Source of the DNA: Rhodocyclales bacterium
GTDB taxonomy: Bacteria > Pseudomonadota > Gammaproteobacteria > Burkholderiales > Rhodocyclaceae
Length of the DNA stretch: 64,000 nucleotides
Assembly (NCBI GenBank): GCA_016235805.1
Contig: JACRIY010000084.1
Span: 1-64,000 of the forward strand
Reading direction: 5' to 3'
Part shown: in pieces, positions 7,623-63,249 of the stretch
Numbering within the stretch: the stretch's first letter is position 1
Layout: each line of letters begins with the position of its first letter
Notes under the pieces: generated by a model
Database searches by the model: none
What the model saw: only the letters and a program-made list of their open reading frames with translations
What the model was told of the DNA's origin: nothing
Position numbers and translations under genes: made by a program

Positions 7623-7646
7623 CCGTGTCACCGGCGCCGACTTTTC
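7623..7646 (+). repeat. Dispersed 24-bp repeat, copy 1
   Basis: Intergenic copy between the receiver-like gene and the A2M stop. It carries the GCGCCGACTTTTC right half and CCGTGTCACC left half, with one change from the commonest left half. Confidence 0.85.
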
Positions 7647-7666
7647 GGGCCGGGCTGCCAAAGTCT

Positions 7667-10600
7667 TCAATTCCCCACCACGACCTTCGCGTTAGGCACT
7701 TCGCCGAACACGTCGGGCGCATACATGGCTTCGACCCGCGTCGGCGGCAGGGCGAACTCGCCGGCGTTGTTGATGCGCAGCGTGTAGTCGATGCTGAAGC
7801 GGCCTTTGGGCACGACTTCGTAATAGGCGCGGAAATTGGCGAAGGTCCGTTCGACGAAGGTCGGCCAGACGCGGCGCGCGCGGCGGTCTTCGTCCAGCGT
7901 CGCGATGCGCGAATCGCGGCCGTCGCCCTCGCCGAGGATGCGACTGCCCGCCGGGATCGGGTCGCTGACCACGACCCAGCCCATGTCCTGCTCGGCGTCG
8001 ATGGTCAGCGTGACGCGCCACAGGTCGCCGCGAGTGAACTTGCCTTTTTCCTTTTCCTGCAGTGGCGTCACCTGGCGCGTGACACGGTAGCCGAAGGCGC
8101 GCGGGCCGCCGGCGGGAATCGCGGCAAGTGCCTGGATGCTGGCCCAGGGCTTGCCGCTGCCGTCGTGCGTGACCGCGAGCGTGGCCTCGCCCGCGGGCCA
8201 GGGCAGGGCCAGGCGCGGTGCGTCGTCGGCGCCTTGCCAGCGATGCTCGGCCTTGCCCGTGCCGAGGCTGGCGCGCGTGGTGCCGGCCACGGCTTCTTTC
8301 TCGAAGCGTCGTCCGTAGCGATCGAGTGCGATAGCGGCCCAGGCATTGGCCGTGGTGGTGAACCAGCGGCCGCGCACCTGGCGTTCCAGAGCGCCGCGGA
8401 GCAGTTTCGGCAGGTCGTCGCGCCAGCCCGGTTCGTCCATCACCGCCTCGATCAGGCGGAAGGCGTTGGAATCGCCGCTGACCATCAGCCACCACCAGTA
8501 GTCGCTCTTCTCGGTCGTGAAGCTCAGCCTCCCACTGGCGTAGGACAGGCGATTGCGCAATTCCCGCTCGGCCGCGGCGAGCTTCTCCGTGCGCTGCGGC
8601 AGGTCGGCGAGGCGCTTGACCACGAGGTACCAGTCGATCAGCGCCGAGGTCGGCAGGCGCAGCGGCTCGACCTCCAGCGCGGCGGCGGCCTTGACCGGAT
8701 TGCGTCCGGCGCGGCTCAGGGCTTCCAGCGCGAGCAGCTTGCCGGCGAGCTGCGCGTCGGTCGCGGCCGGCGACCACAGCGGCGCCTTGAAGCGCGCCTC
8801 GACGAAGCCGGCGAGGCCGTCTTCCAGGCGCGTCCTGAGTTCCGCCGGCAGCGCCATGCCGCTGGCCAGAGAGATGTCGAGCAGGTAGGCGGTGAGCGTC
8901 GCGCTGCCGGCGCTGTTGGCAAGCGAGTCGCCCGGGAAGTAGCGCGCCAGGCCGTTGCCGTCGAGCAGCGCCGGGAGGCTGTCGACCACCTCCTTCCAGC
9001 GCGCTTCGTCCTTCAGGCCGACCGCGACCGAGGCCCGCTGTTCGAGGCAGGCGAAGGGGTAGTCCTCGAAGTAGCGCCGCAGTCCCGGCGGCGGCGTCGA
9101 CAGCTTCGCCGAGAGGCCCAGTTCGATGCCGCCGCGACCCGGCAGCGCGCCCGGCGGCACGGCGACGGGCAGTTCGAGCTTGCCCTCGACGCGGACGAAG
9201 CTGGCCTGCTGCACCGTGACCGGCACCGCCGCCTCGATCTTCTGCGTGATGCGCAGCCGGTCGCGGCTGGGGTTTTTGTTGCTCTCGTCCCTCTCGGTCG
9301 CCTCGAATTCCCATGTCATGGCGGTGGCACCTTCCGGCGCCTGCGCATTCCATGCCAGTTCCGCCGCGCCTTCGGCGGCGAGCTTCACTTCCTTCGCGTC
9401 GAGTGCCTGCGTCCCGGCGCGCGCCGTGACATTCACCGTCATCGCCCGCGTCGTGCCGTTCCTCACCGTCAGCAGTGCCTGGTAGCGGTCCTTCTCGCGT
9501 ACCAGCGGCGGCAGGCCGGACACCATCTGCAGGTCCTGGCGCGTGCGCACGGTCGCCGCGCCGCTGCCGAACAGCGCGGCGCCGGCAGTGGCAATGCCGA
9601 CCAGCTTGAATTCGGTGAGCGAATCGTTGATCGGCAGCTTCACCGTCGCCGTACCGTCAGCGCCGACTTTCACGCGCGGCTGCCAGGTCAACAGCGTGTC
9701 GAACAGTTCGCGCGCCGGCGCGCGGCCGCCGCCGCCGCCCGGCGGCACCGCCTTGCGGCCGAAGTGGCGCTTGCCCAGCACCTGCGATTGCGCGGTGGCT
9801 GTCGTCACCTCGTAGGCGCGGCGTGGCGTCATGGCTTCCAGCAGGTTCCAGCTTTCGTTGGGCCGCAGTTCGAGCAGCGCCTGGTCGACGGCGGCGAAGG
9901 CCAGTTCGGTGCCGGCCGGCAGCGTCTTGCCCGCGGGCGGCGAGACTTTCAGGCGCACCGTGGCTTCCTCGCGCGGCCGGTATTCCTTGCGTTCCGGCAG
10001 CACTTCCACCTTGAGCCGCAGGCTTTCCGTGCCGACACCGAGTTCGGCCAGCCCCAGGCGCCAGGCCGGCTTGGCCAGGTCGACCATCGCCGTCGGCTGT
10101 TGCGGGTTCCACCAGTCGCGGAACCAGGTCAGCGGCTCGCGCCAGCCCCACTGGAACAGCGAATACCATTTCAGCGGCTCGATCCGCCCGCGCACCACCA
10201 GCACCGACACGAAGACATTGGGCGCCCACTCGCCCTTGACCGGCACCTCGATCACCGGGCTGAAGCGCGACAACGGGCGGACGAAGGTTTCGATGATGCC
10301 GCCGGCCTCGACCGAGATCAAAGCCGTCGCCTCGCGGAAGGGCGTATGCACCCGCAAGCGCGCGGCGTCGCCGGCTTGATAACTGCGCTGTTCGGGCACC
10401 ACGTCGATGCGGTCCTGGTTGCCGGCGGTGAACCAGGGATCGTCGCCGCCACCCGCCGCCCAGTAGCTGGCGCCGCTACGCGCGGCGTTGCCTTTGGCAT
10501 CGCGCGTCTGCGCCAGCAGGTAGATCTCGCCCGAGCCCGGCACCTTCGGTTCGCAGCGCAGCAGGCCGCGCGCATCGCTGCGGCCGCTGCACACGGTGCC

Positions 10601-13339
10601 GAGGTCGGTGAACTCCTCGCGGTTCTCGTAGGCGTAGAAGCCGCCCACCACGCGGCGTCGGTGCGAATGCGAAATGCGCCGCTTGGCCGATACCTCGATC
10701 TCCTGCCCGGCGACCGGCTTGCCGTCGAGGTCGAGCGCCAGCAGATCGACGCGGCCCTTGTCGGCGGGCGAGCTCCAGTCCGGGATGCGCATGCCCAGCA
10801 CCACCGCCGCCGGCCACAGCGGCACCGTGCCGCGGATGGTCTGCACCTCGCCGTTGGGATCGTTGAAGCTCATCTCGGCATAGATCTCGGCGGGACCGCG
10901 CGGCTTGCGCCCGAGCGCCACGTCGAGCTTGCCGGCGCCGGCCTGGTCGAGCGTCAGCGCCTGCTTGTCCACGATCAGCTGCTCCCGTTCGCGGCCGTTG
11001 TCGATGCCGAAGGCATTGAGCGCGGCCTCGCCGAAATCGGCGTTGAAGCTGTAGCCGTCGTAGCCGGGCCAACTCGGCCAGGTCGGCCGCAGGGTGGCCG
11101 AGACCTGCACCGGATGCGCCTTGGCCGCGCCGCCATTGAGAAAGGACAGGCCCAGCGCCAGCGGCACGCTGCCGGGCGCGACGAAGCGCTTGCCGGCGCC
11201 CTGCACGCTGCCGGTGAATACCGGCAGGCGAAAGTCGGAAACGCGGAACTCTGCATCCGATCGGGTTGGACCCGTACTGCCGCGCAGCTCGACGGCATAA
11301 GTGCCGCGCTTGGCCGCCTCGGGAATCTTCCATTGCGCCAGCGCCACGCCTTGCGCATCCCAGGCCAGCGGCAGCGTATATTCAGTGCCGCTGTCGTGGC
11401 GGATCACCGCCTGCTTGGGCAGCGTCGCCGGATCGGCGTAGCCCATGCCGCGGCTGTTGCGCTCGCGCGCGATGTGCTTCATCGACACGGTCTGGCCGGG
11501 GCGCAGCAGCGTGCGGTCGAATACCGTGTGGATCAGGCTCGGGCCGGCGCCTTCGCCCCAGGTGTTGACGCCGAAGCGCCAGGGCTCGATGCCCTCGTTC
11601 CAGTCGCTGCGCGCGAAGCTGTAGTCGTCACCGAGCCGAGCGCTGGCGAAGAGGAAGCTGGCACCGCCGCAAGCGGTTTCGCCCAGCGCGCGCTCGGCCA
11701 GGGCGCGGCCCTGGGCATCGGTCTTGCCGCTCCAGAGCAAGGCGCCCTTGCAGTTCGAGACGCGCACCTCGGCGTTCGCCACCGGCTTGCCGCTGTCGAG
11801 CGCCGTGACCCAGACCAGCGCGTTGTCCGCGCCGCGCTTGAAATGCACGGCCATGTTGGTCACCAGAGCGGCGGACCGCACGTACATCGGCTTGGGCCCA
11901 TCTTTGCCGCTCGCCAGCAGAGCCGCGCCGAGCAGCCGGCTCTCGATTTCGACCACGTGGTAGCCCGGCTTCGCCAGCGGAATGCCCAGCACCTCGAACT
12001 CGGCGCCGCCGCCGGGCTTGGGCAGTTCGCGGCGGGTGACGCCGGGGGCCTGTGCGAGGTAGCTCAGTTCGCGGGAGTGGTAAGGATCCTCGTAGTCCTC
12101 CTCCTTGCCCTCGCGCTGTACCTTCAGTTTCTTCGTGCGGCGGTTGAATGCCGCCAGTTCCTGCATCGTCGCGATCACCGCGGCATCGTCGACGAGATGG
12201 CGTTCGGCCAGGCGCAGGCTGGCCTCGACATTGCGCAGGGTGACCGGCAAGAGGCCGCCCTCGCGCAGTTCGACGATGCCGAAATCGCCGGGGAACTTGG
12301 CCAGCGGCGGCAGCGCGGCGATGGCGAACTTGAGCGGGAAGTTCGCCGCGTTGGCCAGCGGCCGTCCGGCTTCGTCCTTGATGCCGGGCGGCAGTTCGAG
12401 GCGCAGCTCGGCGTTCTGCGCAAAGGGCTTGGCGAAGACGAAGCGGGTCGCGGTGTTCTCGCGGCGGCCTTCCTTCAGCGTCGGATCGAGCGGCAGGCGT
12501 TCGCCGGCCGGCGTCAGCAGCCGTATCTTGCCGCGCAGCGCCGCATCGACCGGCGCGGAAAACTCCAGCGTCAGGCTGGACAGCGGCGAGCAGGGCGCGC
12601 CGGCCTTCTCGCGCTCGCAACTCAGCGTGGCGCGGAAGGGCTCGCGTACCGGGTAGACGAAGCTTTCCTCTTTCGTCGAGATCGCTCCATTTGTGGCTTC
12701 GATGCCCTTGCCCCATACCAGCTTCATCTTCGTCCCGGCGGGCAGGCGTTCGCTGCAGCTCAGCACGATTTCGTCCCTGCCGCCGCGCCGCGTCACGTCG
12801 AGCACCTCGGCGCGTTCCTTCGCAGCCAGCAGGCGCACCGGAATGCGGTTGCCGACGCCATCCGCTTCGCACCAGGCGTTCTGTTCCACCGAAGCCGGCT
12901 TCACCGCGCCGGCCGGCGTGATGACGAAGGCCTGGTCCTCCTCGATGCCGCTGCCCGGCGACGGATAAACGGCGCGCGGCCATGGCCCCGGTGCGTAGAA
13001 GCGGTAGCGGTTCTGGCCCTGGATGGCCTCGCCATTGACCGCGCGGAAACTGCCGCGCACCGCGAACAGGCAGCGCTCCCCCGGTTGCAGGGGCCGCTCC
13101 AGCTGCCAGGCCCAGGTGCGGGTATCGACCCAGCGCGCGGACCCCATGGCGGCCCCGCAATCGACGCTGAAGGGTGACGGCGCATCGGGCCGGCCCAGCG
13201 CCACCATGTCGGTATTGAAGGTCGCCGTGGCGCGGGTCTGCTGGTCGACCAGTTCCTGCGGCGTGAACTGCTGCACCCAGGCGGCGTGCGCGGCGCAGGA
13301 CAGGAGGAGGCAAAGCAGGCCGGCGGCGCGCGTGGGCAT
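7667..13339 (-). CDS. Bacterial alpha-2-macroglobulin (YfhM-type), thiol-ester class
   Basis: 1890-aa periplasmic protease trap. The N-terminal signal MPTRAAGLLCLLLSCAAHA allows either signal peptidase I cleavage after AHA or, less typically, lipidation at the Cys of LLSC. A series of MG beta-sandwich domains leads to the thiol-ester region with C1431-L-E-Q (PFACLEQRAS); CLEQ is the form found in E. coli YfhM. After this come the alpha-helical TED domain and the receptor-like domain. Proteases cleave a bait region, and the thiol-ester then traps them. It is the first gene of the run leading to pbpC. The ATG at 13339 is chosen for its signal peptide. Confidence 0.93.
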   Translation of the reverse strand: MPTRAAGLLCLLLSCAAHAAWVQQFTPQELVDQQTRATATFNTDMVALGRPDAPSPFSVDCGAAMGSARWVDTRTWAWQLERPLQPGERCLFAVRGSFRAVNGEAIQGQNRYRFYAPGPWPRAVYPSPGSGIEEDQAFVITPAGAVKPASVEQNAWCEADGVGNRIPVRLLAAKERAEVLDVTRRGGRDEIVLSCSERLPAGTKMKLVWGKGIEATNGAISTKEESFVYPVREPFRATLSCEREKAGAPCSPLSSLTLEFSAPVDAALRGKIRLLTPAGERLPLDPTLKEGRRENTATRFVFAKPFAQNAELRLELPPGIKDEAGRPLANAANFPLKFAIAALPPLAKFPGDFGIVELREGGLLPVTLRNVEASLRLAERHLVDDAAVIATMQELAAFNRRTKKLKVQREGKEEDYEDPYHSRELSYLAQAPGVTRRELPKPGGGAEFEVLGIPLAKPGYHVVEIESRLLGAALLASGKDGPKPMYVRSAALVTNMAVHFKRGADNALVWVTALDSGKPVANAEVRVSNCKGALLWSGKTDAQGRALAERALGETACGGASFLFASARLGDDYSFARSDWNEGIEPWRFGVNTWGEGAGPSLIHTVFDRTLLRPGQTVSMKHIARERNSRGMGYADPATLPKQAVIRHDSGTEYTLPLAWDAQGVALAQWKIPEAAKRGTYAVELRGSTGPTRSDAEFRVSDFRLPVFTGSVQGAGKRFVAPGSVPLALGLSFLNGGAAKAHPVQVSATLRPTWPSWPGYDGYSFNADFGEAALNAFGIDNGREREQLIVDKQALTLDQAGAGKLDVALGRKPRGPAEIYAEMSFNDPNGEVQTIRGTVPLWPAAVVLGMRIPDWSSPADKGRVDLLALDLDGKPVAGQEIEVSAKRRISHSHRRRVVGGFYAYENREEFTDLGTVCSGRSDARGLLRCEPKVPGSGEIYLLAQTRDAKGNAARSGASYWAAGGGDDPWFTAGNQDRIDVVPEQRSYQAGDAARLRVHTPFREATALISVEAGGIIETFVRPLSRFSPVIEVPVKGEWAPNVFVSVLVVRGRIEPLKWYSLFQWGWREPLTWFRDWWNPQQPTAMVDLAKPAWRLGLAELGVGTESLRLKVEVLPERKEYRPREEATVRLKVSPPAGKTLPAGTELAFAAVDQALLELRPNESWNLLEAMTPRRAYEVTTATAQSQVLGKRHFGRKAVPPGGGGGRAPARELFDTLLTWQPRVKVGADGTATVKLPINDSLTEFKLVGIATAGAALFGSGAATVRTRQDLQMVSGLPPLVREKDRYQALLTVRNGTTRAMTVNVTARAGTQALDAKEVKLAAEGAAELAWNAQAPEGATAMTWEFEATERDESNKNPSRDRLRITQKIEAAVPVTVQQASFVRVEGKLELPVAVPPGALPGRGGIELGLSAKLSTPPPGLRRYFEDYPFACLEQRASVAVGLKDEARWKEVVDSLPALLDGNGLARYFPGDSLANSAGSATLTAYLLDISLASGMALPAELRTRLEDGLAGFVEARFKAPLWSPAATDAQLAGKLLALEALSRAGRNPVKAAAALEVEPLRLPTSALIDWYLVVKRLADLPQRTEKLAAAERELRNRLSYASGRLSFTTEKSDYWWWLMVSGDSNAFRLIEAVMDEPGWRDDLPKLLRGALERQVRGRWFTTTANAWAAIALDRYGRRFEKEAVAGTTRASLGTGKAEHRWQGADDAPRLALPWPAGEATLAVTHDGSGKPWASIQALAAIPAGGPRAFGYRVTRQVTPLQEKEKGKFTRGDLWRVTLTIDAEQDMGWVVVSDPIPAGSRILGEGDGRDSRIATLDEDRRARRVWPTFVERTFANFRAYYEVVPKGRFSIDYTLRINNAGEFALPPTRVEAMYAPDVFGEVPNAKVVVGN
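9649..9671 (+). repeat. Dispersed 24-bp repeat, copy 2 (inside A2M gene)
   Basis: Divergent left half (CCGTACCGTC) with a perfect AGCGCCGACTTTC right half. On the coding strand it reads as KVGADGT in the macroglobulin. Confidence 0.7.
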
Positions 13340-13434
13340 GGCGGAAGGCGGGAAGTTTGGCGTCGGCCGATTATAGCCAGCGGTCGTTGCCGGCTTGTGC
13401 CCCGCGCCGTGCCGCCAGCGAGCGAAGGAAGTAC

Positions 13435-13454
13435 CCGTGGGGCGCCGACTTCTC
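13435..13454 (+). repeat. Degenerate copy of the dispersed 24-bp repeat
   Basis: GGCGCCGACTTCTC follows a shortened left half. A separate left half alone, CCGTGCCGCCAGCG, occurs about 30 bp upstream near 13408. This looks like a decayed or rearranged copy between the A2M start and the first PEP-CTERM terminator. Confidence 0.45.
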
Positions 13455-13478
13455 ACTGGCAGTGCCGCAAACAACAAC

Positions 13479-13495: not shown

Positions 13496-13518
13496 CTTTG
13501 TGCTGCGTCAGGCGGCGA

Positions 13519-15154: not shown

Positions 15155-15211
15155 AGGGCGTGATCAAGTCGGTGCGCGCAGGCAACGAAAGTCCGGGTGC
15201 GCCCAAGCGGT

Positions 15212-15235
15212 CCGTGTCGCCCGCGCCGACTTTTC
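15212..15235 (+). repeat. Dispersed 24-bp repeat, copy 3
   Basis: Intergenic copy between PEP-CTERM genes 2 and 3: CCGTGTCGCCC joined to GCGCCGACTTTTC, close to consensus. Confidence 0.85.
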
Positions 15236-16304: not shown

Positions 16305-17378
16305 ATGAAAACCACCGGCCCCCGCAAAGGCCGCGGCGCGGTCGTGTCGCCGGATGGGCGCTTCGATGCCTGGGAGCGCGAGGCTGCCGAGGACGGCTGG
16401 TGGAACGAGGACGAGGAAGCGCCGGCCACCGAATTGATCGTCGATAGCGCGAAGTCAGTGATCACTTACAACGACTCGCCGGACATTCCATACGACCGCT
16501 CGATCAATCCCTATCGCGGCTGCGAACACGGTTGCGCCTACTGCTTCGCGCGGCCGTCGCACGCCTACCTTGGCCTGTCGCCGGGGCTCGACTTCGAGAC
16601 GAAGCTCGCCTGGAAGGCCGACGCCGCGCAAACCCTGCGCCGCGAACTGGCCAAGCCCGGCTACGTCTGCCAGCCTGTGGCGCTGGGCATCAACACCGAT
16701 GCCTGGCAGCCGGTCGAGCGCCGCCTGAAGGTGACGCGCGGCATTCTCGAGGTGCTGGCCGAAACTCGTCATCCGGTCACCATCGTCACCAAGTCGGCGC
16801 TGATCCTGCGCGACCTCGACCTGCTGGCCGAGATGGCGCGCGGCAATCTTGTCCATGTCGCGGTGTCGATCACCACGCTCGATCCGGGCCTGGCGCGGAC
16901 CATGGAGCCGCGCGCGCCGTCGCCCCAGCGCCGACTTTCGGTGATCGCGGCGCTGGCGGCGGCGGGCATCCCGACCGCGGTGATGGTGGCGCCGCTGATC
17001 CCCGCGCTCAGCGACCACGAGCTGGAGGCCATCCTCGGTGCGGCGCGCGAGGCGGGCGCGAGTTCGGCCGGCTACATCCTGCTGCGCCTGCCGCATGAGG
17101 TGAAGCCGCTGTTTCGCGCCTGGCTGGACAGCCACCAGCCGGGACGCGCGGAACACGTGTTCAGCCTGATGCGCCAGATGCACGGCGGCAGGGAATACGA
17201 CAGCGCCTTTGGCACGCGCCAGCGTGGCAGCGGGCCGCTGGCGGAGATCATCGCCCAGCGCTTTCGCGGCGCGGTGCGCCGGCTGGGCCTGGATGCGCCG
17301 ACGCCGCCGCTCGATGTCAGCGCATTTCGTCCGCCGCCGAAGCCCGCGACCGCGACGCCGCAGATGGCGCTGTTCTGA
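16305..17378 (+). CDS. PA0069-family radical SAM protein (SPL-like)
   Basis: 357 aa. The iron-sulfur motif C-x3-C-x2-C appears as CEHGCAYC near residue 75, within the block [24 protein letters not shown] typical of the PA0069/spore-photoproduct-lyase-like group. The reaction of this group is not known to me. Partial TIM-barrel strands follow ([29 protein letters not shown]). The ATG at 16305 is the first in-frame start before the conserved region; the earlier in-frame frame opens without homology. It is divergent from PEP-CTERM gene 3. Copy 4 of the dispersed repeat lies inside it (SPQRRLS). Confidence 0.88.
16917..16939 (+). repeat. Dispersed 24-bp repeat, copy 4 (inside radical SAM gene)
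   Basis: CCGTCGCCCC joined to AGCGCCGACTTTC. It is read in the sense direction as part of SPQRRLS. Confidence 0.8.
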
Positions 17379-17419: not shown

Positions 17420-18436
17420 ATGAAAGTCCTCGGCATCGAATCCTCCTGCGATGAAACCGGCGTCGCGCTCTACGACACCGAGCGCGGCCTGCTCGGCCAT
17501 GCCGTGCATACCCAGGTGGCGATGCACGAAGCCTATGGCGGCGTGGTGCCGGAGCTGGCCTCGCGCGACCACGTGCGGCGCCTGATCCCGCTGCTCGAAA
17601 GGGTGCTGGCCGACTCGAACTGCGCGCGTGGCGAGATCGACGCCATCGCCTACACGGCAGGGCCGGGCTTAGCCGGCGCCTTGCTGGTCGGCGCCAGTTT
17701 CGCCGAGGCGCTGGCCATGGCGCTCGGCGTGCCGGCCGTGCCGGTGCATCACCTCGAAGGCCACCTGCTGTCGCCCCTGCTTGCCGACGAGGTGCCGCAA
17801 TTCCCGTTCATCGCCCTGCTGGTGTCGGGCGGCCATACCCAGTTGATGCGCGTGGCGCGCGTCGGCGATTACGAACTGCTCGGCGAGTCGCTCGACGACG
17901 CGGCGGGCGAGGCCTTCGACAAGACGGCCAAGCTGCTCGGCCTGGGTTACCCCGGCGGGCCGGCGCTGGCGAAACTGGCCGAAACGGGCAAGCCCGGCCG
18001 CTACAAGCTGCCGCGGCCGATGATGAACAGCGGCGACCTTTCCTTCAGCTTTTCCGGGCTGAAGACGGCGGTGCTGACCGCCGCGCGCGCGGCCGAGCTG
18101 ACCGAGGCGGACCGCGCCGACCTCGCGGCGGAATTCCAGGAAGCGGTGACCGAAGTGCTGGCGGCCAAGGCGGTGGCCGCGTGTCGCCAGCGCCGACTTT
18201 CGTCGCTGGTGGTGGCCGGCGGCGTCGGCGCCAACCGGCGCCTGCGCCAGCGTCTGGACGCGGCGATGGCGAAGATCGGCGGCCGGGTGTTCTATCCGGA
18301 ACTGGAGTTGTGCACCGACAACGGCGCGATGATCGCTTTTTGCGGTGCGCAGCGATTGATGCAGGGTGAATTGCCGGCGCTCGGCAAGGGTGCTTTCGCG
18401 GTGCGGCCACGCTGGCCGCTCGCCGAAATTTCCTGA
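17420..18436 (+). CDS. tsaD: tRNA N6-threonylcarbamoyltransferase TsaD
   Basis: Transfers threonylcarbamoyl from TC-AMP to A37 of ANN-decoding tRNAs, with TsaB and TsaE. 338 aa. ASKHA-fold motifs are intact: [16 protein letters not shown], the metal-binding [16 protein letters not shown], and the C-terminal [13 protein letters not shown] and DNGAMIAF. The start at 17420 is chosen over an ATG 9 bp upstream because it gives the conserved MKVLGIE beginning. Neighbours plsY and folB often accompany tsaD in betaproteobacteria. Copy 5 of the dispersed repeat falls in the segment CRQRRLSSL. Confidence 0.97.
18179..18201 (+). repeat. Dispersed 24-bp repeat, copy 5 (inside tsaD)
   Basis: Perfect GTGTCGCCAGCGCCGACTTT core plus C. 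Sense reading gives CRQRRLSS just before the conserved [10 protein letters not shown] of TsaD. Confidence 0.9.
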
Positions 18437-19484: not shown

Positions 19485-20117
19485 CTATCGCTTCTTGCCG
19501 CCGACGCGGGATTCCGTGCCGGCCAACAGTTTGCCGATATTGCTCTTGTGCCTGTAGATCAGTACGGCGCACATCAGGCCCACCACCACCGTGGTCTCGG
19601 TGCTGTGCAGCAGCCACGCGGTGAGGAAAGGTGCCGCCGCCGCCGCCGCCAGCGCCGCCAGCGATGAATAGCGGGTGAGCAGCACGACGCCGAACCAGAC
19701 CGCCGCCGTGAGCCCCGCCAGCGCGCCGGAAAATCCGAGCAGCACGCCCAGCGCCGTGGCCACGCCCTTGCCGCCCTTGAAGCCCAGCGTGAAAGGAAAC
19801 ACGTGGCCGAGGAAGGCGGCCAGTCCGGCCACCGCGACCGCCGTGTCGCCGGCGCCGTCCCCTCCGGGGATACCGCTTTGCATAACTTTCGAGGTGAGGA
19901 ACATCGCCAGCCAGCCCTTGGCCGCGTCGCCGATCAGGGTCAGCGCGGCGGCCGCCTTGCTGCCGCTGCGCAGCACGTTGGTGGCGCCCGGATTGCCCGA
20001 GCCGAAGCTGCGCGGATCGGCTAGGCGGAAAGCACGCGAGACGATCACGGCGAAGGGGACCGAGCCGAGCAGGTAACCCAGCACGGCATAGATGAGCAGG
20101 TTCAGCGTGGAATCCAT
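19485..20117 (-). CDS. plsY: Acyl-phosphate:glycerol-3-phosphate acyltransferase PlsY
   Basis: Inner-membrane enzyme making lysophosphatidate from acyl-phosphate and glycerol-3-phosphate. 210 aa with the expected set of membrane helices. Family motifs are GYLLGSVPFAVIVSR, RSFGSGNPGATNVLRSG and FKGGKGVATALGV, the last two being PlsY active-site loops. It is divergent from folB, sharing a very short promoter space of about 30 bp. The Lys/Arg-rich tail is cytoplasmic. Confidence 0.95.
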   Translation of the reverse strand: MDSTLNLLIYAVLGYLLGSVPFAVIVSRAFRLADPRSFGSGNPGATNVLRSGSKAAAALTLIGDAAKGWLAMFLTSKVMQSGIPGGDGAGDTAVAVAGLAAFLGHVFPFTLGFKGGKGVATALGVLLGFSGALAGLTAAVWFGVVLLTRYSSLAALAAAAAAPFLTAWLLHSTETTVVVGLMCAVLIYRHKSNIGKLLAGTESRVGGKKR

Positions 20118-21651: not shown

Positions 21652-22557
21652 CTAGCCGCGCGGATGGTGCTGCTGGTGCAGTTGCTTGAGGCGTTCGCGC
21701 GCGACGTGGGTGTAGACCTGCGTGGTCGAGATGTCGGCATGGCCGAGCAGCAGCTGCACCACGCGCAGGTCGGCGCCATGGTTCAGCAGGTGCGTGGCGA
21801 AGGCGTGGCGCAGCACGTGGGGCGAGATGCGTTCGCGCGGGATGCCGACCTGCAGCGCGTATTTCTTGACCAGGTTCCAGAACATCTGCCGCGTCATGGC
21901 GGCGCCGCGCATCGTGACGAAGATGGCGTCCGACACGTGCTGCTTCAGCAGTTCGCCTCGCGCGCCCGCGATGTAGCGCCGCAGCCAGTCGGCGGCGACC
22001 TCGCCCAGCGGCACCAGCCTTTCCTTCGAGCCCTTGCCCACCACGCGCACCACGTTGTCGTTGAGGCTCAGCTCGAACAGGCGGATGCCGACCAGTTCCG
22101 ACACGCGCAGGCCGGTGGCATAGAGCAGTTCCAGCATGGCGCGGTCGCGCAGGCCCAGCGCGGTATCGATGTCGGGCGCCGCGAGCAGGGCTTCCACCTG
22201 CTTTTCCGACAGCGTCTTGGGAAAGCGCTGGATCGCCGCCGGCTTGTCGATATTGAGCAGCGGATCGGCCTGCAGCCGTCCCTGGTCGAGCAGCCAGCGG
22301 TAGCAGCGGCGCAAGCTCGCCATCAGCCGCCGCTGGCTGGTCGACTTGATGCCGCCGGGGCGGGCATGCAGGTGGGCGAGGTAGGCGTTGATCGCCGTGT
22401 GGTCGGCGCCGACTATCGAACCGCCGGACGGCGCGAGCCAGGCCGCGAACAACGCCAGGTCGCTGCGGTAGCTGGCCAGCGTGTTCTTCGACAGCCCGTC
22501 GGCCAGCCACAGGGCGTCGATGAATTCGTCGATCAGCTCGGCGTCAGATGACGGCAT
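21652..22557 (-). CDS. xerD: Tyrosine recombinase XerD
   Basis: Chromosome-dimer resolution recombinase acting at dif with XerC and FtsK. 301 aa. The N-terminal SAM-like DNA-binding domain is followed by the catalytic domain with R (ATGLRVSELV), H-x-x-R (HVLRHAFATHLLNHG), and H...Y (LLLGHADISTTQVYTHV). The ATG at 22557 overlaps the ogt stop by 14 bp and gives the normal beginning (MPSSDAELIDEFIDALW); longer in-frame starts lie in ogt. The presence of ogt directly upstream suggests cotranscription. Confidence 0.95.
   Translation of the reverse strand: MPSSDAELIDEFIDALWLADGLSKNTLASYRSDLALFAAWLAPSGGSIVGADHTAINAYLAHLHARPGGIKSTSQRRLMASLRRCYRWLLDQGRLQADPLLNIDKPAAIQRFPKTLSEKQVEALLAAPDIDTALGLRDRAMLELLYATGLRVSELVGIRLFELSLNDNVVRVVGKGSKERLVPLGEVAADWLRRYIAGARGELLKQHVSDAIFVTMRGAAMTRQMFWNLVKKYALQVGIPRERISPHVLRHAFATHLLNHGADLRVVQLLLGHADISTTQVYTHVARERLKQLHQQHHPRG

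Positions 22558-23381: not shown

Positions 23382-23385
<4 letters not shown>
23011..23385 (-). CDS. DUF1850 protein, partner of the TRAP transporter
   Basis: 124-aa exported protein. A hydrophobic leader (SLCLAAGAVSAVLA) precedes the DUF1850 core with SFTLTWIHSIEKIRWEEDWRIE and the conserved GSGAGMEP. Genes of this type commonly follow fused TRAP-T permeases of the TAXI class; their role is unknown. The likely start is TTG at 23385, overlapping the TGA of the permease (TTGA); the first internal ATG at about 23341 would remove most of the leader. The junction falls inside copy 6 of the dispersed repeat. Confidence 0.75.
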
Positions 23386-25484
<2,099 letters not shown>

Positions 25485-30954: not shown

Positions 30955-31589
30955 CAGGACGCCTTGCCGAGCAGCTTTTCCTTGAGGTCGTCCTGCGCCG
31001 GGTTGTCGCCCAGCCAGATGCGCAGCAGCGCGCGATAGAAGTCCTCGCCGGCGATGTCGGCGCCCTTCTGCGCGCCATTGAAGGAAAGTCGCGTCCCGGT
31101 GTCGGGCAGCCAGTCCAGATTGACCACAGATTTTTCCGGGGCGTTGCCGATGGTCAGCATGGTGCTGCGGAACTGGTCGATCTTCGGTTGCAGCGACTTC
31201 AGCGTCGGTTCGTCGTGGTTCTTCTTCAGGGCCGAGATCAGGGCGTCGACGAACTCCTCGGCGGTAAGGTCGCGCAGGGTGACGATGGCGATGCGCTTGG
31301 CGCCCTTTGCGGCCAGCACGTCAGCCGTGGTGGAGGCCTTCTGCGGCAGGTAGAGGCCGAGCGCATAGACCTTGAAGAAGGCCCGGTTGCGCAGCCCGGC
31401 GCCATTGATCACCGTGTCGCCAGCGCCGACTTTCACCTTGTCTTCGAACTTCACGCCGGCGACTTCGAGCGCAGCCAGTGCCGGCAGGGATAGGGCCATG
31501 AGCAATGCGGCGGCAAGTTTCTTAGCTCCGGCCGCTGCGCTTAACGCCGATAGTGCCGGCGTTAGCCTGCACTGAAACTCCGTTTTCAT
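30954..31589 (-). CDS. Exported chalcone-isomerase-like protein
   Basis: 211 aa. A signal peptide (AAALLMALSLPALA) precedes the chalcone-isomerase-like core with VAGVKFEDKVKVGAGDTVI, LRNRAFFKVYALGLYLP and LPDTGTRLSFNGAQKGADI. Bacterial members are thought to be fatty-acid-binding or of unknown role rather than flavonoid enzymes. The start ATG at 31589 has AGGAG 7 bp before it. Copy 8 of the dispersed repeat encodes its KVGAGDT. Divergent from the DUF4139 gene. Confidence 0.85.
   Translation of the reverse strand: MKTEFQCRLTPALSALSAAAGAKKLAAALLMALSLPALAALEVAGVKFEDKVKVGAGDTVINGAGLRNRAFFKVYALGLYLPQKASTTADVLAAKGAKRIAIVTLRDLTAEEFVDALISALKKNHDEPTLKSLQPKIDQFRSTMLTIGNAPEKSVVNLDWLPDTGTRLSFNGAQKGADIAGEDFYRALLRIWLGDNPAQDDLKEKLLGKAS
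31412..31434 (+). repeat. Dispersed 24-bp repeat, copy 8 (inside chalcone-isomerase-like gene)
   Basis: Exact match to the commonest form, CCGTGTCGCC followed by AGCGCCGACTTTC. It encodes KVGAGDT on the minus strand. Confidence 0.9.
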
Positions 31590-35905: not shown

Positions 35906-37162
35906 TCAGGCGCGTACCTCGCCATTGCCGAGCACGATCCACTTCAGCGAGGTGAGGCCTTCGAGGCCGACCGGGCCGCGGGCGTGGAACTTGTCCGTGG
36001 AAATGCCGATCTCCGCGCCAAGCCCGAATTCGAAGCCGTCGGCGAAGCGCGTCGAGGCGTTCACCATGACCGAGGCCGAATCAACTTCGCGCAGGAAGCG
36101 CATCGCGTCGGTGTAGTTCTCGGTGACTATGCTCTCGGTGTGGCCGGACGAATAGGTGTTGATGTGCGCGATCGCCTCGTCGATGCCGGCGACGATCTTC
36201 ACCGAGATGATCGCGGCGAGGTATTCGGTGTACCAGTCCTCTTCGGTCGCGGCGATGGCCTGCGGCACCAGCTTGCGGGTTTCCTCGCAGCCGCGGATCT
36301 CGACGCCCTTGGCGGAGAGCATGGCGCAAAGAGTCGGCGCCAGCGACACGGCGACGCCACGCGCGATCAGCAGCGATTCGGCGGTGTTGCAGGTGCCCAG
36401 CCGCTGGGTCTTGGAATTCTCCAGGATGGCCAGCGCCTTCGCCGCGTCGGCCGCGCCATCGACATAGACATGGCAGTTGCCGTCGAGGTGCTTGATCACC
36501 GGCACCCGGGCCTCCTTCGACACGCGCTCGATCAGTCCCTTGCCGCCGCGCGGCACGATGACATCGACGTATTCCGGCATGGCGACGAGGTGGCTCACCG
36601 CCTCGCGGTCGGTGGTTTCGACCACCTGCACCGCGCTTGCCGGCAGGCCGGCGGCGGCGAGGCCTTCGCGCACGCAGGCGGCGATGGCCTGGTTGCAGCG
36701 GATGGCTTCCTTGCCGCCGCGCAGGATCGCGGCATTGCCGGACTTGAGGCACAGCGCGGCGGCGTCGGCCGTGACGTTGGGCCGTGCCTCGTAAATGATG
36801 CCGACCACGCCCAGCGGCACGCGCATTCGGCCGACCTGGATGCCGGAAGGGCGGCGCTTCATGTCGCTGATTTCGCCGATTGGGTCGGGCAGGGCGGCGA
36901 CCTGTTCCAGGCCCAGCGCCATGGCTTCAACGCCTTTTTCGGTGAGCGTCAGGCGGTCGAGCATCGCCGCGTCGAGGCCATTGGCTTGGGCTTCGGCGAC
37001 ATCGGCGGCATTGGCGGCGAGCAGTTCGGATACGCGCGCGCGGATGGCCTGTGCCATCGTCAGCAGGGCGGTGTTCTTGGCGGCGGTCGAGGCGCGTGCC
37101 GTGGCGCGCGAGGCTTCGCGCGCCGCCTTGCCGACCTGCTGCATGTAGTCCTTCACGTTCAT
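35906..37162 (-). CDS. proA: Gamma-glutamyl phosphate reductase ProA
   Basis: Second step of proline synthesis: NADPH-dependent reduction of gamma-glutamyl phosphate. 418 aa, family length. The catalytic Cys sits in [12 protein letters not shown]; other conserved blocks are [23 protein letters not shown] and [16 protein letters not shown]. The ATG at 37162 ([17 protein letters not shown]) is chosen rather than an ATG 42 bp upstream. It follows holA by 28 bp, a common betaproteobacterial order. Confidence 0.96.
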
Positions 37163-38736: not shown

Positions 38737-41388
<2,652 letters not shown>

Positions 41389-45203: not shown

Positions 45204-45982
45204 ACTCTGTGGAAGTCAATGGCATCACCATCAACTACAGGATCGAAGGCAGCGGGCCCTGGGTCACGCTCTCGCATTCGCTGACCTGCGACCTGAGCAT
45301 GTGGGATGCGCTCGCCGTGTCGCTGGCGCCGACTTTTACGGTGCTGCGCTACGACACGCGCGGCCACGGCGGAACGACCGCACCGGAAGGCGCCTACAGC
45401 TTCGACCAGCTCACTGCCGATGTGGTCGGGCTGCTCGATGCGCTGAAGGTCGAACGCACGCACTTCGTCGGCCTGTCGATGGGCGGCATGATCGGCCAGC
45501 ATCTCGCGCTCGCCGTGCCGCAACGCCTGGACCGGCTGGTGATCGCCAATTCGACCAGCCGCATACCGCCCGAGGCCGGCCCGCTGTGGGACGAGCGCAT
45601 CGCCATCGTGGGCGCCCAGGGCTGCGCCGGCGTGGTCGAGGGTACGCTGGGGCGCTGGTTTACCCCCGGCTTCCGAAGCGCGCAGCCGCTCGAGGCGGCA
45701 CGCATTGCGAAACTCATTGCCGATACTCCAGCCGCCGGTTACATCGGCTGCGCCAGCGCCATTCGCGCGCTCGACATCACCGGGAAAATCGGTGCCATCA
45801 CCACGCCGACCCTGGTCATCGCCGGTGCCGACGATCCCGGCACGCCGCCGGCGATGTCCGAAATCATCGCCGCGACGATCCCCGGCGCACGGCTCGAAAT
45901 CATTCCTTCTGCCTCGCATCTCTCGTGCATCGAGCAGCCGGAAACCTTCAACCGCTTGGTCGCGTCTTTTCTGAAAGGCTGA
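45200..45982 (+). CDS. Alpha/beta hydrolase (enol-lactonase-like)
   Basis: 260 aa. Nucleophile elbow G-L-S-M-G-G with Ser, and the C-terminal His in ASHLSCIEQPETFNRL. Overall similarity is to 3-oxoadipate enol-lactonase-type hydrolases (RYDTRGHGGTTAPEGAYSF). The actual substrate is not clear, as no other beta-ketoadipate gene is near. ATGA overlap with uvrD and 2 bp to the SDR gene. The dispersed repeat at 45315 encodes its SLAPTFT. Confidence 0.88.
45315..45337 (+). repeat. Dispersed 24-bp repeat, copy 10 (inside hydrolase gene)
   Basis: CCGTGTCGCT then GGCGCCGACTTTT. Sense reading gives SLAPTFT. Confidence 0.8.
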
Positions 45983-47950: not shown

Positions 47951-47974
47951 GAAAAGTCGGCGCCGGCGGCACGG
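47951..47974 (-). repeat. Dispersed 24-bp repeat, copy 11
   Basis: Intergenic, between the aminotransferase and rapZ. Minus-strand reading CCGTGCCGCC then GGCGCCGACTTTTC. Confidence 0.85.
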
Positions 47975-48015
47975 CGCGCTGCCTGCGCCGCGCGTTATCC
48001 GCTATTCTTTCGGGC

Positions 48016-50530: not shown

Positions 50531-51636
50531 AGCGCTTCGAGGATGCGCCTGACCGGCGCCGGCAGCGCGGCCGCGGCGAGATCGTCGCCGGCGATCCAGC
50601 GCAGGCCGGATTCCATCGCTGCAGATTGCGGCTCGACGTCCAGCAGCAGCGGCGAGATGCGCAGGCGGAAATGGCTGAAGGCGTGCTCAAGAGTCGGCGC
50701 TGGCGCTACGGCGATCACGCGGCAGGCGAAGCGTTGCGCCGCCCACTGGCGGGCGTCCGTGGCCTCCGGCAGTTCCGGCAGGGACAGCAGGCCGCCCCAG
50801 ATGCCTGCCGGCGGGCGGGTTTCGAGCAGGATGCGGCCGTCGTGGCAGAGCACCAGCAGCGTTGCCTCGCGTTGCGGGATCGTCTTGCGCGGTTTCGGTT
50901 CGGGCAGCTCGCCGGTGCGGCCCGCGGCGCGAGCGACGCAGATGTCATCGAGCGGGCAGGCGTCGCAGCGCGGCTTGCCGCGCGTGCAGACGGTGGCGCC
51001 GAGGTCCATCTGCGCCTGGTTGTAGACGCCTCCTTCGCGCTTCGGCATCAATTCGCCGGCCAGTCGCCACAGGCGCTTTTCCACCACCGAATTGCCCGGA
51101 AAGCCCTCGATGCCGAAGGCGCGGCACAGCACGCGCTTGACGTTGCCGTCGAGGATGGGCGCCTGAGCGCCGAAACAGAAGGTCGCAATTGAGTTGGCCG
51201 TCGAGCGGCCGATGCCCGGCAGTCCGGCAATCACGTCCGGATGACGCGGAAACTCGCCGCCATGCTCGCGCATCACCGCCTGCGCGCAGGCATGCAGGTT
51301 GCGCGCGCGGGCGTAGTAGCCCAGCCCGCTCCACAGCGCCATGACCTCCTCGACCGGCGCGGCGGCGAGGTCGGCGAGCCGTGGAAAGTGCCGCAGGAAG
51401 CGCTCGTAGTAGGGCGTCGCGGTCGTCACCTGGGTCTGCTGCAGCATGATCTCCGACAGCCAGACGCGGTAGGGATCCGTGGTGTTCTGCCACGGCATGT
51501 CGTGGCGACCGTGACGCTTGTGCCAGCGGATCAGGCGCGCGGCAAAGCCGCGCGGCTGGGGCGATGAAACGGCCTTCCCCCCGGCACCCTCCCCGTGGGA
51601 GGGGGTGACTACGGTTCGCCGCTGGCGCGGCTCCAT
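50488..51636 (-). CDS. mutY: A/G-specific adenine glycosylase MutY
   Basis: Removes A mispaired with 8-oxoG or G. 382 aa from ATG 51636. Catalytic Glu in SEIMLQQTQV, helix-hairpin-helix and catalytic Asp in LPGIGRSTANSIATFCFGAQ / ILDGNVKRVLCRAFG, and the [4Fe-4S] cluster C-x6-C-x2-C-x5-C in CTRGKPRCDACPLDDIC. The C-terminal NUDIX-like part ends with HAFSHFRL. The N-terminal ~25 residues before FAARLIRWHKRHGRH are encoded by the 105-bp dispersed element, which supplies the ATG; a GTG at 51681 (overlapping the purT stop) is the alternative. Copy 12 of the dispersed repeat encodes VAPAPTL. Confidence 0.95.
   Translation of the reverse strand: MEPRQRRTVVTPSHGEGAGGKAVSSPQPRGFAARLIRWHKRHGRHDMPWQNTTDPYRVWLSEIMLQQTQVTTATPYYERFLRHFPRLADLAAAPVEEVMALWSGLGYYARARNLHACAQAVMREHGGEFPRHPDVIAGLPGIGRSTANSIATFCFGAQAPILDGNVKRVLCRAFGIEGFPGNSVVEKRLWRLAGELMPKREGGVYNQAQMDLGATVCTRGKPRCDACPLDDICVARAAGRTGELPEPKPRKTIPQREATLLVLCHDGRILLETRPPAGIWGGLLSLPELPEATDARQWAAQRFACRVIAVAPAPTLEHAFSHFRLRISPLLLDVEPQSAAMESGLRWIAGDDLAAAALPAPVRRILEALQASGSSPLLSRKR
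50689..50711 (-). repeat. Dispersed 24-bp repeat, copy 12 (inside mutY)
   Basis: Minus-strand reading CCGTAGCGCC then AGCGCCGACTCTT, as in copy 6. It encodes the segment VAPAPTL just before HAFSHF. Confidence 0.85.
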
Positions 51637-57226: not shown

Positions 57227-58417
57227 ATGGCAACCCTGATCCTCCATCCCGGCAAGGAAAAATCCGTCCTGCGCCGCCATCCCTGGCTGTTCTCCGGCGC
57301 CGTCGCGCAGCTCGACGGCCGCGCCCGGCCGGGTGACACGGTCGACGTCGTTTCCCACGAAGGCCGCCCATTGGGCCGTGCGGCCTGGAGTCCGGCCTCG
57401 CAGATACGCGCCAGGATGTGGAGCTTCGCCGCCGAAGAGACCATCGACCACGCTTTCTTCAAGCGCCGCGTCGCTGCCTCGGTGGCGCGCCGCGACGCCC
57501 TGCCGGAGCTTGCCGGGCAGCAGGGCCTGCGCCTGATCCACGCCGAATCCGACGGGCTGCCGGGCATCATCGCCGACCGCTACGGCGATACGGTGGTGGT
57601 ACAACTGACCACGGCGGGCGCCGACAAGTGGCGTGCCGCCATCGCCGACTCTCTTCAGAAGGCCACCGGCTGCGCGCGCATCTACGAACGCTCGGATGTC
57701 GAGGTGCGCAATCTTGAAGGCCTCGAAGCGGTCACCGGCTGGCTGCATGGCGGTGCGCCCGAAGGCGATATCGTGATCGCCGAAAACGGCGTGCGCATGG
57801 CGGTCGACATCGTCGGCGGCCACAAGACCGGCTTCTACCTCGACCAGCGCGAGAACCGCCGCCGCGCCGCCGATCTGGCGCGCGACCGGCGCGTGCTCAA
57901 CTGCTTCTGCTATACGGCCGGCTTCTCGCTGCAGGCGCTGGCCGGCGGTGCGCGCGAGTTGGTGTCGATGGACAGTTCCGGCCCGGCGCTGGCCACCGCG
58001 CAACGCAACCTGGCCCTGAATCCGCAACTCGACGCGGCGCGCGCGATCTGGCTCGAAGCCGATGTCTTCGCCGAACTGCGCAGCCTGCGCGCGGCCGGCG
58101 AACGCTACGACCTCGTCATACTCGACCCGCCCAAGTTCGCCAACACGGCGGCGCACGCCGACCGCGCAGCGCGCGCCTACAAGGACATCAACCTCCATGC
58201 CATGCAATTGCTGGCGCCGGGCGGCTTGTTGATGACGTATTCGTGTTCGGGCGGCGTCGATGCCGAGCTGTTCCGCAAGATCGTCGCCGGCGCCGCGCTA
58301 GACGTGGGGCGCACGGCGCGCGTGGTGCAGCACCTGCATGGCGCAGCCGACCATCCGGTCGATCTCGCCTTCCCCGAAGGCGAGTACCTCAAGGGCTTGT
58401 TACTGCAAGTGGATTGA
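57227..58417 (+). CDS. rlmI: 23S rRNA (cytosine-C5)-methyltransferase, RlmI type
   Basis: 396 aa, the same length as E. coli RlmI, which methylates C1962 of 23S rRNA. An N-terminal PUA domain (LRRHPWLFSGAVAQLDG) precedes an EEHEE connector and a SAM-binding Rossmann domain: VLNCFCYTAGFSLQALAGGARELVSMD, LVILDPPKFAN. The catalytic Cys is in MTYSCSGGVD. Its TGA overlaps the first base of copy 13 of the dispersed repeat. Confidence 0.93.
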   Translation: MATLILHPGKEKSVLRRHPWLFSGAVAQLDGRARPGDTVDVVSHEGRPLGRAAWSPASQIRARMWSFAAEETIDHAFFKRRVAASVARRDALPELAGQQGLRLIHAESDGLPGIIADRYGDTVVVQLTTAGADKWRAAIADSLQKATGCARIYERSDVEVRNLEGLEAVTGWLHGGAPEGDIVIAENGVRMAVDIVGGHKTGFYLDQRENRRRAADLARDRRVLNCFCYTAGFSLQALAGGARELVSMDSSGPALATAQRNLALNPQLDAARAIWLEADVFAELRSLRAAGERYDLVILDPPKFANTAAHADRAARAYKDINLHAMQLLAPGGLLMTYSCSGGVDAELFRKIVAGAALDVGRTARVVQHLHGAADHPVDLAFPEGEYLKGLLLQVD

Positions 58418-58439
58418 AAAGTCGGCGCTGGCGCCACGG
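58416..58439 (-). repeat. Dispersed 24-bp repeat, copy 13
   Basis: Starts in the rlmI stop codon; minus-strand reading CCGTGGCGCC then AGCGCCGACTTTTC. The adjacent inverted repeat GGCGCCACG / CGTGGCGCC (58430-58458) partly overlaps it. Confidence 0.85.
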
Positions 58440-58458
58440 CGATTGCGGGCGTGGCGCC
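58430..58458. repeat. 9-bp inverted repeat between rlmI and the zinc operon
   Basis: GGCGCCACG and CGTGGCGCC with an 11-nt loop. It could be a bidirectional terminator, though no T run follows. It overlaps copy 13 of the dispersed repeat. Confidence 0.5.
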
Positions 58459-62423: not shown

Positions 62424-62876
62424 ATGGTCCGCGCATCCGCCACCGCCGAAGAGCCTCTGTCGTCCGAACTGATCCGCGCCGCCGGCGTCAAGGTGACGCG
62501 CGGCCGGGTGCGCGTGCTCGACGCGCTGCGCGCGGCGCGCCAGCCCCTGTCTCATGCGGAAATGGAAGCGCTGCCGGCCGGCGCCGGCGATGCGGCGATC
62601 GACCGCGTCACGCTCTACCGCGTACTGGATTCGCTGGTGGCCTGCGGCCTCGCGCTGAAGGCGGTGGATACGCGCGGCGTGTTCCGCTTCTCCGCCGCCG
62701 GGGCGCAACGCCAGCATGCCAAGCACGTCCATTTCCGCTGTACCGGTTGCGGCGGGGTGTTCTGCCTCAAGGCCGAGCCGCCGCCGCCGCCCAGGTTGCC
62801 GCGCGGCTTCCGCTTGCAGCAGGTCGAGTTCGACTTGCGCGGTTTGTGTGCCGGCTGCGGTGCACTGGCGTCATGA
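62424..62876 (+). CDS. zur: Fur-family regulator, probably the zinc sensor Zur
   Basis: 150 aa. N-terminal winged helix (LIRAAGVKVTRGRVRVLDALRAARQPLSHAEMEAL) and C-terminal dimer domain with the structural zinc pairs (HFRCTGCGGVFCL and LCAGCGALAS). The assignment to Zur, not Fur, rests on context: ZIP transporter, zinc-linked ABC operon and palindrome. Sequence alone does not separate the two. ATG at 62424 is the first in-frame start after the palindrome. Confidence 0.85.
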   Translation: MVRASATAEEPLSSELIRAAGVKVTRGRVRVLDALRAARQPLSHAEMEALPAGAGDAAIDRVTLYRVLDSLVACGLALKAVDTRGVFRFSAAGAQRQHAKHVHFRCTGCGGVFCLKAEPPPPPRLPRGFRLQQVEFDLRGLCAGCGALAS

Positions 62877-62883
62877 GTTCGGC

Positions 62884-63249
62884 ATGAGGCGCCCGCGCCG
62901 CCACATCCTGCTGGCCTGCTGGCTGGTGGTGCAGTTGCTGTTCGGCCAGCAACTGGCGCTGGCGCACATGGTCGGCCATGTCGGCGACGCCCTTGCCCAT
63001 GCCGTCGCCGGCGCCGATGCCGGTGCCAGCGAAGAAGACAGCGAGCATGGCGGTGCCGAAGCGCTGACCCACGTCTGCTCCGCCTGCGCCAGTGGTCTGG
63101 GCGCCGACATGCTGCCCGCTGCCGGGCGGTTCGCCCGTGTCGATCCCGGCAGCGGCGATCAAGGACTTTCCGGCGCCGTGTCGCCAGCGCCGACTTTCGG
63201 CTCGCGCGCCGCCTTTCGCAGTCGCGCACCTCCCCCGTTCCAGGCCTGA
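62884..63249 (+). CDS. Small exported Cys-containing protein, unknown
   Basis: 121 aa. Signal peptide (ILLACWLVVQLLFGQQLALA) then a His- and Glu-containing stretch (HMVGHVGDALAHAVAGADAG, EEDSEHGGAEALTHVCSACASG), resembling DUF2946-type small proteins. The H/E/C residues could bind metal. It follows zur closely and precedes the outer-membrane protein, so it is inferred to belong to the zinc locus. Its tail (AVSPAPTFG) is encoded by copy 14 of the dispersed repeat. Confidence 0.65.
   Translation: MRRPRRHILLACWLVVQLLFGQQLALAHMVGHVGDALAHAVAGADAGASEEDSEHGGAEALTHVCSACASGLGADMLPAAGRFARVDPGSGDQGLSGAVSPAPTFGSRAAFRSRAPPPFQA
63176..63198 (+). repeat. Dispersed 24-bp repeat, copy 14 (end of small exported gene)
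   Basis: Exact match to the commonest form, CCGTGTCGCC then AGCGCCGACTTTC. Sense reading gives VSPAPTF. Confidence 0.9.

Follow-up and report, generated by a model that had tools for sequence, protein, structure and literature searches.

The repeated word and its setting

The 64,000-nucleotide stretch analysed here (the window) comes from a Rhodocyclaceae metagenome-assembled genome (MAG) and carries genes as unrelated as tsaD, leuS and a mutY-like gene, with a short repeated word, considered below as a candidate DNA uptake sequence, lying both inside and between them. The repeat unit is a 24-bp two-block word, CGCCGT-N7-GCGCCGACTTT, with the middle gtCGCCA. The 67 exact GCGCCGACTTT copies found in 463 kb of host sequence define a conserved unit of 24-25 bp, which reads (r)t-CGCCGT-gtCGCCa-GCGCCGACTTT-y. 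Both outer blocks are nearly fixed, the middle is looser, most of all at its start, and no clear conservation of the flanks is seen beyond ~25 bp. Summed over informative positions, the word holds 37.2 bits in the host (108 copies) and 35.9 bits in a relative, G002 (130 copies). The initial annotation of the window had described GCGCCGACTTT as near-fixed, which holds, and had located the variation in the left half of the word, which does not, since the second fixed block, CGCCGT, was overlooked and is nearly as conserved.

Within the window, 16 matches to an 18-mer core (≤3 mismatches) were found against 0.22 expected (100 shuffles, maximum 2). All 14 copies listed at that time are among these matches, with the same split of 10 on the plus and 4 on the minus strand. 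The 24-bp model used hereafter (CGCCGTN7GCGCCGACTTT, 17 fixed positions, ≤2 mismatches) likewise gives 16 copies in the window, 11 plus and 5 minus, namely those 14 together with 22393(+) and 36330(-). At 57635, a match departs from the full model at 4 positions and could be due to chance. As a control, replacing the N7 spacer by N6 yielded no match in the host. The annotated 'decayed copy at 13435' is a word into which a 24-bp insert has come (13405-13452). Copies lie inside tsaD, leuS and the mutY-like gene (18177, 38845 and 50690, respectively), at a stop codon (23385) and immediately after a gene (58418). The copies are as follows:

7621..7644, plus strand: word copy, 1 mismatch, intergenic
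9647..9670, plus strand: word copy, 0 mismatches, within alpha-2-macroglobulin-like gene 7667-13339(-)
13405..13452, plus strand: word split by a 24-bp type B insert (CGAAGGAAGT...GTGGGG)
15210..15233, plus strand: word copy, 2 mismatches, intergenic
16915..16938, plus strand: word copy, 0 mismatches, within PA0069-family radical SAM gene 16305-17378(+)
18177..18200, plus strand: word copy, 2 mismatches, within tsaD 17420-18436(+)
19839..19889, plus strand: word interrupted between GCGCCG and ACTTT by a 27-bp type A hairpin insert (TCCCC..GGGGATACCG..GCATA), within predicted gene 19485-20117(-)
22393..22416, plus strand: word copy, 1 mismatch, within tyrosine recombinase gene 21652-22557(-); absent from the earlier list
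23385..23408, minus strand: word copy, 1 mismatch, at the stop codon of DctM-type transporter gene 23382-25484(-)
25212..25235, plus strand: word copy, 2 mismatches, within the same DctM-type transporter gene 23382-25484(-)
31410..31433, plus strand: word copy, 1 mismatch, within chalcone-isomerase-like gene 30954-31505(-)
36330..36353, minus strand: word copy, 1 mismatch, within aldehyde-dehydrogenase-family gene 35906-37204(-); absent from the earlier list
38845..38868, plus strand: word copy, 1 mismatch, within leuS 38737-41349(-)
45313..45336, plus strand: word copy, 0 mismatches, within pcaD-like gene 45200-45982(+)
47953..47976, minus strand: word copy, 0 mismatches, intergenic
50690..50713, minus strand: word copy, 1 mismatch, within mutY-like gene 50488-51681(-), with HhH-GPD and NUDIX_4 domains
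58418..58441, minus strand: word copy, 0 mismatches, intergenic, immediately after gene 57227-58417(+)
63174..63197, plus strand: word copy, 0 mismatches, within predicted gene 62860-63249(+)

Abundance in the host genome

The word is abundant throughout the host assembly (3.83 Mb, 130 contigs, 80% complete). With the 24-bp model, 629 copies (305 forward, 324 reverse) were counted, compared with 9 for the reversed pattern; with the 18-mer (≤3 mismatches), for which a genome-wide count had been proposed as a check, the figures are 571 and 18. Finer controls were applied to samples totalling 463 kb of the host genome, which hold 108 words and in which genes were predicted with a simple hexamer gene finder. 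The mismatch spectrum is two-peaked, with 47, 47, 14 and 20 copies at 0-3 mismatches where control means are 0, 0, 0.1 and 4.3, and permuted and reversed patterns gave approximately no copies at 0-2 mismatches. The proposed comparison with a codon-matched null also came out in favor of a real signal: 70 genic copies are present, against 6-19 (mean ~13) in 20 synonymous-codon shuffles within genes, an approximately 5-fold excess. Together with the several reading frames and the intergenic copies, this null agrees with the earlier argument that shared protein ancestry is not the cause.

Distribution among relatives and dialects

Enrichment extends well beyond the window, throughout the host genome and to each of the 31 genomes of its genus that were searched (67 copies in G016, 181-747 in the others). 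The host belongs to Rhodocyclaceae in the broad sense, since G130 and G343, two genomes of its family, coincide in their match positions with a Zoogloeaceae MAG and an Accumulibacter MAG, respectively. A survey of the family covered 395 genomes in 68 genera, with R/Y allowed at two positions and ≤1 mismatch. Seven genera are strongly enriched: the host's genus g1 (23/23 genomes, G016 having just 35 copies), g8 (1/1), g78 (1/1), g85 (1/1), g86 (4/4), g119 (9/9) and g19, in which 17 of 19 genomes qualify, G356 holding 82 copies and G344 3. Weak enrichment was detected in g10 (16 genomes, 0-43 copies), g23 (48 and 2), g16 (23 and 2) and g96 (24), and the remaining 57 genera never exceed 14 copies in any genome. 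Among records not close to the host, the nearest named TsaD proteins belong to a Sterolibacterium MAG (79%) and a Rhodocyclaceae MAG (80%), where word counts are at control level. Outside the family, ≤5 exact copies per genome were found in 338 genomes (the order survey included 349 genomes, 11 of them from the family), with 0 or 1 per strand for the reversed control.

The spelling of the word differs between genera, as seen in stretches totalling 20-463 kb per genome. The fixed block contains GCGCC in 107/108 host words (g1) and GCGTC / GCGTCGACTTT in 14/15 words of g85; spelling is mixed in g8 (GCACC 9/18, GCGCC 8/18), and TGCCGT replaces CGCCGT in two of three sampled genomes of g19. Because the sites within one genome shift spelling together, a reader with a changed preference is suggested. 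Samples of G052 (40 kb), G176 (20 kb) and G344 (20 kb) contain no copy, matching their low genome counts. No replacement word was seen in the word-poor G016 (60 kb) and G344 (35 kb); the most frequent 10-mer of G016 was rejected as a candidate because it is repeated within a single region. In g19, the spelling GTGCCGTC looks like the beginning of the Neisseria uptake sequence (ATGCCGTCTGAA), probably by chance.

Isolated consensus words were also encountered in otherwise word-free genomes, four of them from other families (G071 contig C29, G094 C3, G500 C34 and G609 C24) and one from the Accumulibacter genus (G047). In the first four, two consensus words lie ~4-8 kb apart on one contig. Possibly, such words are footprints of DNA from word-bearing donors. 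Among viral-labelled contigs of IMG/VR, at least 120 stretches (loci L247-L326) contain the exact 17 fixed bases, and in 70 of the 80 distinct copies that were examined, 4 or more of the 7 middle letters agree with the consensus.

Placement, origin and alternative explanations

Placement around the chromosome was studied in G002, whose complete chromosome was sampled as 40 stretches of 20 kb (21%), 38 roughly evenly spaced and two picked beside an empty one. Words occur in 37/40 stretches. Mean spacing within stretches is ~4 kb, a value biased low by stretch length, and density in enriched samples is ~1 per 3-9 kb. Two of the three stretches without a word, L209 and the adjoining L378 (the third is L369), form 40 kb with 0 words and a GC content of 0.55, L378 having been picked as adjacent and low-GC. 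Among 8 of the 19 predicted genes of L209 that were searched, F-type type IV secretion system proteins TraN and TraU, HipA, McrBC, an AAA ATPase, SRAP and an exonuclease domain were recognized, one gene having no match. Depletion in acquired mobile DNA was thus found in one conjugative-element region, L209/L378. In 5-kb bins of G002, 1 word was counted in 14 bins below 58% GC, 18 in 33 bins of 58-62% and 111 in 113 bins of ≥62%; the same classes in the host hold 0 words in 1 bin, 3 in 8 and 103 in 82.

A distribution of this kind could be produced by a binding site for a chromosome-organising, segregation or repair protein, such as FtsK orienting polar sequences (KOPS), Chi, matS, a Noc/SlmA-like site or a nucleoid protein site. 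The strand and macrodomain patterns of KOPS, Chi, matS and SlmA-binding (SBS) sites were used for comparison; KOPS, Chi, matS and similar sites are short, frequent and over-represented. The word shares these properties and, with hundreds of strongly fixed copies round the chromosome, genus-specific variants and low density on foreign DNA, would suit such a protein, but it shows neither strand polarity nor a macrodomain pattern. The G-rich strand, taken as leading, and the C-rich strand carry words in ratios of 61:51 in G002 and 47:40 in the host (108/199 on the G-rich strand in total, p=0.26), considering stretches with a GC skew ≥0.01 and excluding 18 and 21 words in weak-skew stretches or short ends. 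The strand-bias check proposed with the initial annotation therefore shows no G-rich-strand preference, and because of this and the words in 37/40 stretches, a polar segregation or recombination signal of the KOPS/Chi type is disfavored, as are matS-like and SBS-like patterns. Strong enrichment in only 7/68 genera and near-complete loss in G016 and G344 would also be odd for a core function. Altogether, a chromosome-protein site is an unlikely explanation, although the one with most in its favor after the uptake reading.

How copies arise and are lost was examined with twenty syntenic stretches from other species of the host's genus. Of 1399 aligned pairs, which are redundant, 1055 have the word; in 176 it has been lost with the length preserved, and in 168 its loss is accompanied by a gap or a change of length. 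At the tsaD site, all 19 relatives align gap-free, 14 keeping the word (≤3 mismatches) and 5 having lost it by substitutions; none of the 65 lost tsaD pairs shows a length change. The word-poor species G016 and G025 carry decayed versions at this same site. In the radical SAM gene, 11/11 aligned relatives keep the word (≤3 mismatches) and no lost pair was seen. Between the host and G002, the word is kept at 13/18 coding sites and 1/1 gene-edge site. The alignments thus indicate that in several genes, tsaD and the radical SAM gene among them, the word took the place of native sequence without length change.

These comparisons also bear on a proliferating miniature mobile repeat, such as a repetitive extragenic palindromic (REP) sequence, a miniature inverted-repeat transposable element (MITE) or another palindromic element, for which high copy number, the intergenic excess described below and the length changes in 168 of 344 word-less pairs would speak. 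A proliferating inserted repeat is nevertheless disfavored because in tsaD and the radical SAM gene the word stands where native codons would be; it has no conserved flank past ~25 bp, and the genuine short inserts that do exist land inside the word. This explanation is considered very improbable.

Relative to genes, words are over-represented in noncoding DNA: in the host sample, 8.8% of the sequence is noncoding but 34/108 words are intergenic (p=2e-11), and in the first 20 stretches of G002 the figures are 11% and 26/66 (p=2e-9). This excess, and the copy abutting a stop codon at 23385, might point to a regulatory site near genes (operator, part of a terminator or RNA element). Most copies (70/108 in the host, 38/66 in G002) are, on the contrary, wholly inside predicted genes and in both orientations, with 35/70 and 16/38, respectively, on the gene's own strand, and inverted pairs less than 150 bp apart are rare (2/87 and 3/93 spacings), leaving a regulatory role with hardly any likelihood. 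Reading frames of genic words are uneven, with 6/6 frames used in the host and four in G002, and the commonest coding reading, xVGAGDTx-like on the opposite strand, corresponds to the frame of 28/70 genic host words. A by-product of codon usage or a shared protein motif, to which this reading and the GC-rich letters might be attributed, is refuted by the synonymous-codon shuffles and by the reversed and permuted patterns, several frames and intergenic copies being involved, and can practically be dismissed.

The word as a probable DNA uptake sequence

Among the four meanings put forward at the outset (DNA uptake, chromosome segregation or recombination, protein binding, proliferating repeat), a DNA uptake sequence fits best. 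What was observed of the word, from its abundance, shape and distribution to its in-place origin in several genes, its dialects, its loss from some species and its absence from a conjugative-element region, matches the traits of DNA uptake sequences, and no rival fits as well. Over-representation on both strands (629 vs 9; 305/324), occupation of permissive sites (intergenic excess, restricted frames, abundance above the codon null) and clade-specific dialects were all found. The word is therefore probably a DNA uptake sequence, a 'self' watermark for kin DNA; competence, the receptor and the uptake bias are inferred. In such a scenario, these Rhodocyclaceae would have a DNA receptor, on the cell surface or the pilus, that prefers DNA with CGCCGT-N7-GCGCCGACTTT during natural transformation; kin DNA would be taken up and recombined, so that word-enriched recombinants would accumulate and the word would spread, through substitution and conversion, to any place where it is compatible with gene function. 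Drift in the taste of the receptor would make the genomic population of words drift as well, giving dialects, and loss of recognition would let the words decay.

Several observations weigh against this interpretation, among them those on competence genes. ComEC was detected in 73/74 genomes tested, the host included, the sole genome without it being word-free, and DprA scored over cut-off in 41/45. As predictors of the word, both were rejected, being just as frequent in genera without it. No DprA was detected in the host MAG (80% complete), in G180 or in G005, which is word-rich and 99% complete, and G176 gave a partial match only. G016 and G344, which have lost most words, still have ComEC and DprA. 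The Pfam family ComP_DUS (PF16732) was similarly discarded as a predictor, as it occurs in 58/62 genomes with no relation to the presence of words; most of the top scores come from word-free genomes, and none was found in the word-bearing G114. A ComEA model matched 36/45 genomes, just 6 over cut-off. Since ComEC, DprA and ComP_DUS are spread irrespective of words, the presence of competence genes does not account for which genera bear the word. The ComEC domain of G356, a word-poor g19 genome (82 copies), lies in two pieces on different contigs (C4:108352-109074 and C77:2406-2492), reflecting either a broken gene or an assembly break.

Further difficulties come from the words themselves. Known uptake words measure 9-12 nt, roughly half the length of the fixed core seen here. 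The 168 length-change pairs (72 at the gene end 23385, 45 at 25212, 31 at 19839, 12 at 22393 and 8 elsewhere) imply that pure substitution is not the origin at every site, and the word is missing in G002 at both alignable intergenic host sites (0/2). Density is low at 58-62% GC too, so part of the depletion in foreign DNA may be a composition effect, and the word also occurs in IMG/VR contigs, which may be phage or host DNA.

Comparison with known uptake systems

In Neisseriaceae, the DNA uptake sequence (DUS) is read by the minor pilin ComP and is a 12-mer of the ATGCCGTCTGAA type, and the uptake signal sequence (USS) of Pasteurellaceae has extended T-rich flanks. The Rhodocyclaceae word has no clear counterpart of these flanks beyond its terminal TTT(Y), and it differs from the Neisseriaceae DUS in its sequence, its longer fixed core, its two blocks with a semi-fixed middle, its density of ~1 per 3-9 kb, its few inverted pairs and the lack of a discriminating ComP homologue among the genomes searched. 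An excerpt of a 2025 paper names only Neisseriaceae and Pasteurellaceae as known users of uptake words, which are 9-12 nt long (PMC12616744). As far as excerpts of the literature describe them, the Neisseriaceae DUS resembles the present word in its very many copies inside and between genes, its clade-specific dialects, its atypical distribution in conjugative elements and the mobile DNA that seemingly lands at it (PMC3630211, PMC7371117, PMC2397512), and the Pasteurellaceae USS resembles it in being a genome-wide word at permissive sites with two versions in one family (excerpt of PMC2397512). One of these sources gives CTG as the core of Neisseriaceae DUS dialects and AAGTGCGGT / ACAAGCGGT as the USS (PMC3630211). 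Identity with either was rejected: CTG is absent from the fixed blocks of the consensus CGCCGTgtCGCCAGCGCCGACTTT, which is also different from, and without core similarity to, AAGTGCGGT or ACAAGCGGT.

No paper on uptake sequences in Rhodocyclaceae or Rhodocyclales was found in the literature searched, outside which most subscription papers and preprints fall, and priority is not thereby proven; among the papers listed by broader searches, none concerned this family to judge by its title, and text matches to the core in its two orientations, in one and five papers, were, by title, in no case about uptake words. On balance, the evidence leans toward a third family with an independently evolved uptake of self DNA, characterized by a ~24-bp two-block word with a longer fixed core, about four genus spellings, repeated losses, a receptor that is not simply ComP and hairpin elements evolved to insert precisely into the word. 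If true, a third independent case would make the origin, spread and dialect change of uptake words testable by comparison, with seven word-rich genera beside dozens of word-free ones, and single species with words lost, as material. The word-bearing clade consists of environmental relatives of Accumulibacter and Zoogloea, and the word would then be a watermark telling which community DNA came from which clade.

Inserts within the word and other repeats

Short inserts of two types break up some of the words of genus g1, each word at a single point. Type A is a hairpin of 22-39 bp, TCC..GGGATACCG..CATA, placed between GCGCCG and AC(TTT), and in 10/11 cases its length is a multiple of three. Two copies were found in the host sample and nine in 800 kb of G002, as follows:

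Host: window 19839-19889; L014 9078
G002: L200 10668; L201 3411; L202 5115 and 17258; L208 12088
G002, further: L213 2843; L215 17240; L374 5871; L382 8774

At two sites, an intact word in the host corresponds to an interrupted one in G002. Site 19839, interrupted in the host, has the intact word in other species of the genus (269/340 aligned pairs). Type B is a 24-bp insert, CGAAGGAAGTnnnnGTGGGG (CGAAGGAAGT..GTGGGG), that splits the word at AGCG/CCGACTTT; three copies are present in the host sample (window 13405-13452, L014 7777 and L014 1989) and none in the G002 sample. A precedent for such inserts is offered, in the excerpt of one source, by a conjugative element of Neisseria whose attP is apparently adapted to DUS motifs (PMC7371117).

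Elements like type A also occur free-standing and in tandem (TATCCCACC..GGGGATACCGTC..GACATA) elsewhere in the genus. Finally, a separate intergenic repeat of ~150-175 bp is present in three copies in the window (13442-13614, 14247-14391 and 15223-15398), as well as on host contigs C127, C19 and C11 and in G017.

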